Assembly (NCBI RefSeq): GCF_021233415.1
Contig: NZ_CP089466.1
Location: forward strand, 682,001-746,000
Direction: 5' to 3'
Length of the DNA stretch: 64,000 nt
Source: Halobacterium litoreum
GTDB taxonomy: Archaea > Halobacteriota > Halobacteria > Halobacteriales > Halobacteriaceae
Each line of letters opens with the position of its first letter. Positions within the stretch are counted from its first letter, which is position 1. Both the position numbers and the translations under genes were made by a program. This document shows positions 37,790 through 54,453 of this stretch, piece after piece. The notes under the pieces are model-generated. The model saw only the letters and a program-made list of their open reading frames with translations. It was not told where the DNA came from and did no database searches.

Positions 37790-38075
37790 CGAAAGCCCCT
37801 GCTCGCTCGACCGTCCGCGACTCGCTGCGCTCCTCGCTCCCTTCGGTCGCTTCGGTGCTTGCGTCGTCGGGGCCGAATCGAGCGAGCAGGGGCTTTCAGT
37901 CCCTCCCGCTACCGGTAACTCAGCCGGCAGATACGCGCCGACCGGCAGCCGGTAGTCGGGTGGACTGAAAGGGGCGACAGCCTCGGCGAAGGCCGACGAC
38001 GCAAGCACGGACGCGAACGGAGTGAGCGACGCGCGCAGCGAGGCGCCCGAGTCGAGGCTGTCGGGGCTTTCGAAG
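37790..38075. repeat. Bipartite hairpin element, copy A (three stem-loops)
   Basis: Hairpin 1 pairs 37791-37810 with 37878-37897 (20 perfect bp, ends GAAAGCCCC and GGGGCTTTC). The middle hairpin pairs CTTTCAGTCC (37893-37902) with GGACTGAAAG (37962-37971), extended by CCCG/CGGG and ACCGG/CCGGT. Hairpin 2 pairs 37975-37985 with 38053-38063. The loop of hairpin 2 carries GACGCAAGCACGGA and GAACGGAGTGAGCGACGCG; hairpin 1's loop is roughly its reverse complement. No coding potential. It fills the region between the divergent HAD and Gfo/Idh genes. Another copy lies at 54125-54453. Confidence 0.85.
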
Positions 38076-54038: not shown

Positions 54039-54124
54039 CTCGGCTCTTCTTTGTGGGTCGGAGACTTAAACGGTCGGCTAGCGGTTGTGTTCGGTTTGCG
54101 CTCCTGACGTCGTGAACTCCTCCC

Positions 54125-54453
54125 CGAAAGCCCCGGCGTTGTGGACTCGCGGGCCTCGCTGCGCGCGCTCCCTACGGTCGCGTGCTTGTCTCGGGAGAGC
54201 GACCTCTCCCGTCGTTCGCCTCGCCTCGCTCGGCTCACCTTCGTCCTGCTTCGTCCACAACGCCGCCCCTTTCGAATTCCCACCCGACTACCGGCTGACC
54301 GGACGGCCGGAGTCTGCCGGCTGATTCACTGGCACGGGTGGACTGAAAGGGGCCGCGTTCTCGGGGAAGCCCGCCGACGCAAGCACGGAAGCGAACGGAG
54401 TGAGCGACGCGCACAGCGAGGCGCGCGACCCGAGAACGCGGGGGCTTTCGAAG
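54125..54453. repeat. Bipartite hairpin element, copy B (three stem-loops)
   Basis: CGAAAGCCCC at 54125-54134 is the first box, and GGGGCTTTCG (54441-54450) the last. Stem 1 pairs GGCGTTGTGGAC (54135-54146) with GTCCACAACGCC (54253-54264). Stem 2 pairs CCGCGTTCTCGG (54353-54364) with CCGAGAACGCGG (54430-54441). The middle stem pairs CACCCG (54281-54286) with CGGGTG (54335-54340). GACTGAAAGGGGC and GACGCAAGCACGGAAGCGAA are shared with copy A. The stems differ from copy A but remain complementary. Confidence 0.85.

Follow-up and report, generated by a model that had tools for sequence, protein, structure and literature searches.

At positions 54125–54450 of the analysed window, a 64,000-nucleotide stretch of Halobacterium litoreum (GCF_021233415.1, NZ_CP089466.1, positions 682,001 to 746,000, forward strand), and between the genes of a divergent pair that is conserved in relatives, lies an element designated copy B. 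It consists of two hairpins, inverted relative to each other and each with arms that pair perfectly, which lie between boxes common to a second copy in the window, copy A (Table 1). From left to right, copy B reads CGAAAGCCCC, stem 1, loop, stem 1′, GCCCCTTTCGAATTC, a middle segment, GGACTGAAAGGGGC, stem 2, loop, stem 2′ and GGGGCTTTCG. Because the right half, once reverse-complemented, has the same layout as the left half, copy B amounts to two inverted copies of one hairpin unit around the middle segment. The strings that an earlier note on this DNA had listed for copy B were located where that note had placed them, and each stem pairs with its own partner in full, as it had claimed.

Table 1 Coordinates of copy B, its parts and copy A in the window
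Feature	Position	Strand	Remarks
Putative left outer terminal repeat GGTTGTGTTCGG	54083..54094	+	9/12 match to IS6-type GGTASTGTTYAG; ~43 nt outside box; position and sequence as in intact-ended relatives; degenerate, weak
Outer box CGAAAGCCCC, left terminus of boxed part	54125..54134	+	repeated through genome
Stem 1, 5′ arm GGCGTTGTGGAC	54135..54146	+	12/12 complementary to 54253–54264; fits stem profile
Hairpin 1 loop region, core motif CTCGCTGCGCGC...GTGCTTG plus nested palindromic insert	54147..54252	+	core motif conserved
Nested small palindrome CTCGGGAGAGCGACCTCTCCCG in hairpin 1 loop	54190..54211	.	other copies have similar nested palindromes
Stem 1, 3′ arm GTCCACAACGCC	54253..54264	+	pairs with 54135–54146
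Hairpin 1 inner box GCCCCTTTCGAATTC, variant of GCCCCTTTCAGTCC	54265..54279	+	sequence
Middle segment separating hairpins 1 and 2	54280..54339	.	in relatives, hairpin GCCCCTTTCAGTCCCACCC...GGGTGGGACTGAAAGGGGC
Hairpin 2 inner box GGACTGAAAGGGGC	54340..54353	+	sequence
Stem 2, 5′ arm CCGCGTTCTCGG	54353..54364	+	12/12 complementary to 54430–54441
Hairpin 2 conserved core motif GACGCAAGCACGGA	54376..54389	+	conserved in alignments
Stem 2, 3′ arm CCGAGAACGCGG	54430..54441	+	pairs with 54353–54364
Outer box GGGGCTTTCG, right terminus of boxed part	54441..54450	+	sequence
Hairpin unit 2 of copy B	54339..54449	+	covariance model R1, 122 bits, E 5e-24; top match genome-wide
Hairpin unit 1 of copy B	54126..54279	-	covariance model R1, 54 bits; loop carries long insert
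Copy A, second copy of element in window, same plan	37790..38072	+	units 37791–37903 (-) and 37961–38071 (+)

The box CGAAAGCCCC occurs five times in the window against 0.16 expected occurrences, and the predicted RNA folding of both copies lies far below that of dinucleotide shuffles (z = -9.2 for copy B and -8.4 for copy A). The two copies have the same boxes overall, with one exception to what the earlier note had asserted; the right-hand box of copy A hairpin 1 is GGGGCTTTCAGTCC, not GCCCCTTTC, so that this hairpin, unlike its counterpart in copy B, pairs straight through the box. Between the right-hand hairpins of A and B, the core loops are ~92% identical and the arms 50–57% identical.

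Copies of the element are numerous in the genome and widespread in the class. A covariance model (R1), built from 67 units and applied to the genome of the window at a threshold of E ≤ 0.001, recovered 40 hairpin units at ~29 loci on the Halobacterium chromosome, while box and inner-box patterns alone marked some 20 to 25 sites in the genome. The elements are multicopy, intergenic and non-coding and, at ~330–420 bp, too short for a transposase gene. Units were present in 100 of 116 Halobacteria genomes (86%), and none was found in ~160 non-haloarchaeal genomes of the phylum (within a 197-genome phylum sample). Related species carry anything from 0 to more than 30 copies, some nearly complete Halobacteria genomes have no copies, and the exact inner box occurs in 12 of 13 members of the genus at very different copy numbers. 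A scan of named genomes placed the same middle hairpin in Haloarcula, Halonotius, Haloterrigena, Natronococcus, Halorarius, Halovenus and others. On the host chromosome (G000:C1), a 916-kb arc from 736 kb to 1653 kb is devoid of hairpin units, with the ~29 loci lying elsewhere (P = 1.5e-4). Genes flanking 72 classifiable copies were in tandem in 42 cases, convergent in 16 and divergent in 14; because this orientation is unbiased, a terminator or promoter role is unlikely, and a terminator, promoter or gene-regulatory position was rejected.

To what degree the fold is conserved was read from alignments of genomic copies. In an alignment of 67 sequences, 23 of the 32 consensus pairs had changes at both positions that preserved pairing. 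A separate alignment of 150 sequences is in agreement, and in it the inner helices covary too and the CGACGCAAGCAC and GCGCAGCGAG loops are fixed. As the units were gathered by box patterns, intact-box copies are favoured, and the conservation of the boxes is partly built in. Across 291 distinct arm pairs, a mean of 11.18 of 12 positions formed Watson-Crick pairs as compared to 5.70 with right arms reshuffled (93% versus 48%), a statistic that counts copies as independent, which gene conversion makes only partly true. Almost all arm positions use all four pair types, some with a purine or pyrimidine preference, and position 8 is T-A in 263 of the 291 pairs. Conserved stem sequence in place of covariation was not found. 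The stems of A and B do differ in their letters, as the earlier note had it, but its term “unrelated” is a little too strong given the profile common to all stems of the class; the stems follow this shared profile and are changed by compensatory substitution and cassette exchange. Each unit has a conserved fold, in which a 13-bp outer stem, almost free in its letters, is accompanied by inner helices and by internal loops that are purine-rich and fixed. An Rfam scan matched no curated family, a literature search by sequence string gave no haloarchaeal match, and phages gave no match; the element, with such covariation, is not represented in Rfam and, as judged from the literature covered, has not been described as a structured one.

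The residual mispairs are unequally distributed between the two strands. Read in the GGACTGAAAGGGGC-to-GGGGCTTTC direction (the GGACTG strand), mispairs one step from a pair comprised 56 G.T against 13 A.C (131 clusters, p ~2e-7), 29 against 9 when the two innermost stem positions were left out, and 26 against 12 in the inner helices. As RNA, this strand also forms a slightly more stable fold than its complement (-50.0 versus -48.5 kcal/mol). This G.T bias suggests selection on one strand folded as RNA or single-stranded DNA (ssDNA), and we infer that the selected form is a folded single strand, most likely the GGACTGAAAGGGGC...GGGGCTTTC strand, as RNA or ssDNA. Strand-specific C-to-T mutation could be an alternative source of the G.T excess. 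The proposal of the earlier note that structure is under selection is supported by three lines of evidence: i) the near-saturated covariation, ii) the conserved mismatched internal loops, and iii) the G.T/A.C strand asymmetry of the mispairs.

Target duplications were not found next to the GAAAGCCCC boxes and were recognised once the ends were sought ~40 nt further out, where a further conserved end is located and where 8-bp direct repeats bracket the element in several copies. The consensus of this end, GGTASTGTTYAGATAAG, had matches in 65 of 194 genomes, with none for the reversed control. Some matches mark the termini of insertion sequences of ~697 bp that encode an IS6-family transposase (NF033587, E 6e-58 and 2e-59; PF13610), and others to 214–382-bp elements holding one or two hairpin units; exact 8/8-bp target duplications were present in seven of the eight short elements read. 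Terminal inverted repeats GGTAGTGTTCAGATAAG, related to the autonomous transposon, are present for the family in several genera. A recent family in genome G127 consists mostly of 320–373-bp elements, and 8 of its 14 sites show duplications that match in at least 7/8 bp; its intact copies segregate TACAG/CTGT and TGCAG/CTGC, with both sides changed together and no intermediate. In the window, copies A and B have degenerate outer repeats (at copy B, the left end is the only one still recognisable), and no clear target duplication could be recognised for either copy, so that their IS6-type origin rests on homology to copies elsewhere. The Halobacterium genome of the window had no match to an IS6-type transposase, which lowers any claim of present mobility for the window copies; the copies in this genome would now be immobile.

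The sequence around the boxes holds two further regularities, both in L291–L410. Between terminal repeat and box, 14–35 nt outside the boxes, a purine recurs at every third base (-35, -32, -29, -23, -20, -17, -14). The terminal box extension carries lineage-variable letters that are inverted at both ends (CAGCCAG, CAGCAAG, CAGCATG, CACCTCG or CACCACG before AAAGCCCC), as though they matched a partner specific to each lineage.

Comparison of the same sites between species revealed how the stems change. At the copy B locus, genomes G011 and G012 have a short empty site. In G009, G013 and G018 the site is filled, by an element that has different stems or lacks part of its hairpins; G013 has its boxes joined with hairpin 1 absent, and hairpin-less forms such as GAAAGCCCCCGGCCCCTTTCAGTCC were found at other loci. 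An all-against-all comparison of flanks yielded 115 same-side unit pairs at orthologous sites. With flanks at least 90% identical, arm identity ranged from identical to random-like, and at sites with 90–95% identical flanks a hairpin was in some cases retained and in others lost, swapped in place, or replaced in its entirety as far as the boxes. Between G014_L225 and G008_L156, for instance, there is little difference in hairpin 1, the middle or the flanks, and hairpin 2 is a different hairpin with its limits at the two boxes. Whole-hairpin exchange accounts for how the two arms at a site can be altered simultaneously. The complete arm replacement that the earlier note had read from A and B does not apply to that pair, which are paralogous mobile-element copies and not one site; it does describe the exchange of whole hairpins at orthologous sites. 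Since the same stem, for example CGAGGCTGTAGACT, occurs at many sites in several species, hairpins spread between sites.

In a few orthologous pairs the matching unit lies on the other side of the element, and in one of these pairs both units do so, indicating that whole elements have been inverted in place at a few sites; chance sharing of common stems explains part of these matches. Seven of 25 unit pairs, among them A and B of the window, have loops 90–95% alike and stems that are not, and loops and stems may also reassort. The stem-inversion signature raised by the earlier note was rare, with 4 of 252 classifiable loops reversed and 248 standard, and stem inversion was rejected as the source of stem change.

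Additional palindromes are nested at recurrent positions within the units. A twin-hairpin insert, GTTCGAAAGACG..CGTCTTTCGTGATGACGAGAGAGC..GCTCTCTCGAACCAC, recurs at the same loop spot (L050:1388-1439, L206:1091-1144, L321, L354 and others) and resembles palindrome-targeting SMR elements. A double palindrome (GTT-TCGGCGC..GCGCCGA-CTCGGGAGAGC..GCTCTCCCGG) sits exactly between inner box and stem in 12 distinct cases (L297, L314, L315, L317, L346, L355, L358). The 108-nt insert in the Halococcus 5S rRNA (PMC7812874) has the size of one hairpin unit.

On plasmids, the best unit matches cluster upstream of one gene, which encodes an OB-fold RPA-like protein of ~298 aa. When eight further loci were picked by the OB-fold protein alone, seven had a unit or degenerate unit several hundred bp upstream. 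A strongly conserved leader of ~450–500 nt, the first part of which is one hairpin unit, precedes this gene (L441:2501-3972 (CP007061.1), L444–L450, L471–L472, L474–L478), and the gene itself occurs in up to four copies per plasmid (196 plasmid records). The fixed unit upstream of the plasmid gene suggests at least one use beyond mobility. The OB-fold gene is absent from the Halobacterium host genome, where RPA-like matches only were found, and is thus not required for the family; the protein was rejected as a required partner, given the ~40 units in that genome.

Taken together, copy B is probably a resident copy of a Halobacteria-wide family of miniature, non-coding and non-autonomous mobile elements (MITEs) with structure-selected, exchangeable hairpin cassettes. 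The complete element would comprise a terminal repeat, ~30 nt, the box CGAAAGCCC, hairpin 1, a middle hairpin (GCCCCTTTCAGTCC...GGACTGAAAGGGGC), the inverted hairpin 2, the box GGGCTTTCG, and a second terminal repeat. Judging from the intact ends, which are of the archaeal IS6 type, and from the 8-bp target duplications, the likely mover is an IS6-type transposase acting in trans. Stem letters would change in two ways, either through compensatory substitutions or when whole hairpins are exchanged, lost or inverted in place by recombination between dispersed copies, for which the boxes common to the copies may supply the homology; the exchange events themselves are observed, and the enzymology is presumed.

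Several other explanations were weighed against this model. The arms might stay complementary through mutation alone: one arm would be copied onto the other by template switching or palindrome correction, with no selection on the fold. Units perfected through the box would fit this, namely copy A hairpin 1 (GAAAGCCCC...GGGGCTTTC) and G017_L265 (GAAAGCCCC replacing GAAAGGGGC), as would the paired variants of the G127 family, which lack an intermediate among intact copies. However, arm copying would erase mismatches, whereas the internal loops CGACGCAAGCAC / GCGCAGCGAG, which are asymmetric, remain unpaired and are conserved class-wide, and it does not predict the strong one-strand bias of the residual mispairs. 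The compensatory changes and fixed mismatches thus argue for selection on the folded strand over passive arm copying, which as a general account is quite unlikely; the arm copying proposed in the earlier note fits only the few copies with perfected boxes and, judging from these, may also occur. Sites could also be emptied and hit again by different elements, with no hairpin exchange, and different repeats at one identical position are known from the haloarchaeal “SwitchRepeats” (PMC3119063). G014_L225 and G008_L156 speak against such target-site re-use, since the second hairpin alone differs between them and its limits fall at the boxes; we regard this account as very unlikely.

Two further alternatives concern function. 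Cruciforms acting at the double-strand level, in nucleoid organisation or at replication fork or termination sites, would account for the twofold symmetry of the double element, for boxes and hairpins with a four-way-junction geometry, and for the uneven distribution around the empty arc. A double-strand function is strand-symmetric and predicts equal numbers of G.T and A.C mispairs, which were not seen, and the lack of copies in some nearly complete genomes also opposes it, rendering this the most improbable of the explanations considered. A genuine host non-coding RNA or cis-regulatory gene family, with incidental mobile traits, would be in keeping with the strong covariation, the strand-specific G.T excess, the class-wide presence, and the recurrence, across many genera, of a unit close to one and the same plasmid gene. 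This explanation is challenged by the variation in copy number between related species, by insertions with target duplications and IS6-type ends, by the unbiased orientation of flanking genes, and by the symmetry of the double element, and we consider it unlikely.

The putative structure-selected mobile family can be set beside known repeat systems. REP/BIME elements of bacteria have stems of conserved sequence and are associated with RAYT transposases, which are Y1 HUH enzymes. Both these elements and the present family are paired inverted hairpin units, intergenic and in many copies; here, in contrast, the stems covary and the ends are IS6-type. In integron attC sites, conserved boxes surround a hairpin of variable sequence with a kept fold, and the site is recognised as a folded single strand; the likeness would be a mechanical analogy, as boxes, layout and cassette content differ. 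Among archaeal elements, MITEHarch3 (ISfinder) is listed as an IS6 MITE, and the archaeal “IS6” elements have been argued to deserve their own family (PMC6807381). These MITEs, compared here by description, are similarly transposase-less, with IS6-type terminal repeats and 8-bp target duplications. MITEHsal2 of Halobacterium salinarum (411–413 bp, target duplication 6–8 bp; PMC10264941) belongs to the same genus and is similar to the present family in length and duplication size, a likeness by description. No described MITE was found with hairpins that covary class-wide and are exchangeable.

PATEs and SMRs of Haloquadratum walsbyi are short non-coding mobile repeats with palindromes, in which small repeats are nested in palindromes (PMC3119063). 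PATEs have IS605-type ends, with subterminal palindromes, no terminal inverted repeats and no target duplication, and were rejected as an identity for the present family, which has terminal repeats and 8-bp duplications; SMRs also lack a target duplication, and their ends bear no relation to transposons. The Haloquadratum “SwitchRepeats”, in which a single position is occupied by unlike repeats or by one repeat in either of its orientations (PMC3119063), resemble the hairpin exchange described here and look like the same phenomenon.

A bolder extension, which we hold only tentatively and on the doubtful side, is that of a class-wide family of hairpins acting as single strands (RNA or ssDNA) and carried on IS6-type MITEs, their cassettes swapped between fixed sites at the conserved boxes. 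Each site would then hold a changing hairpin of constant fold; the variable stem could be an identity tag or free, and a host or element protein would read the conserved purine loops. The same sites in related species, with old, new, inverted or missing hairpins, provide a natural data set with which selection on the fold could be separated from arm-copying mutation. If the folded strand is an RNA or ssDNA substrate, a binding partner is expected that would be widespread in haloarchaea, including genetically tractable laboratory strains.
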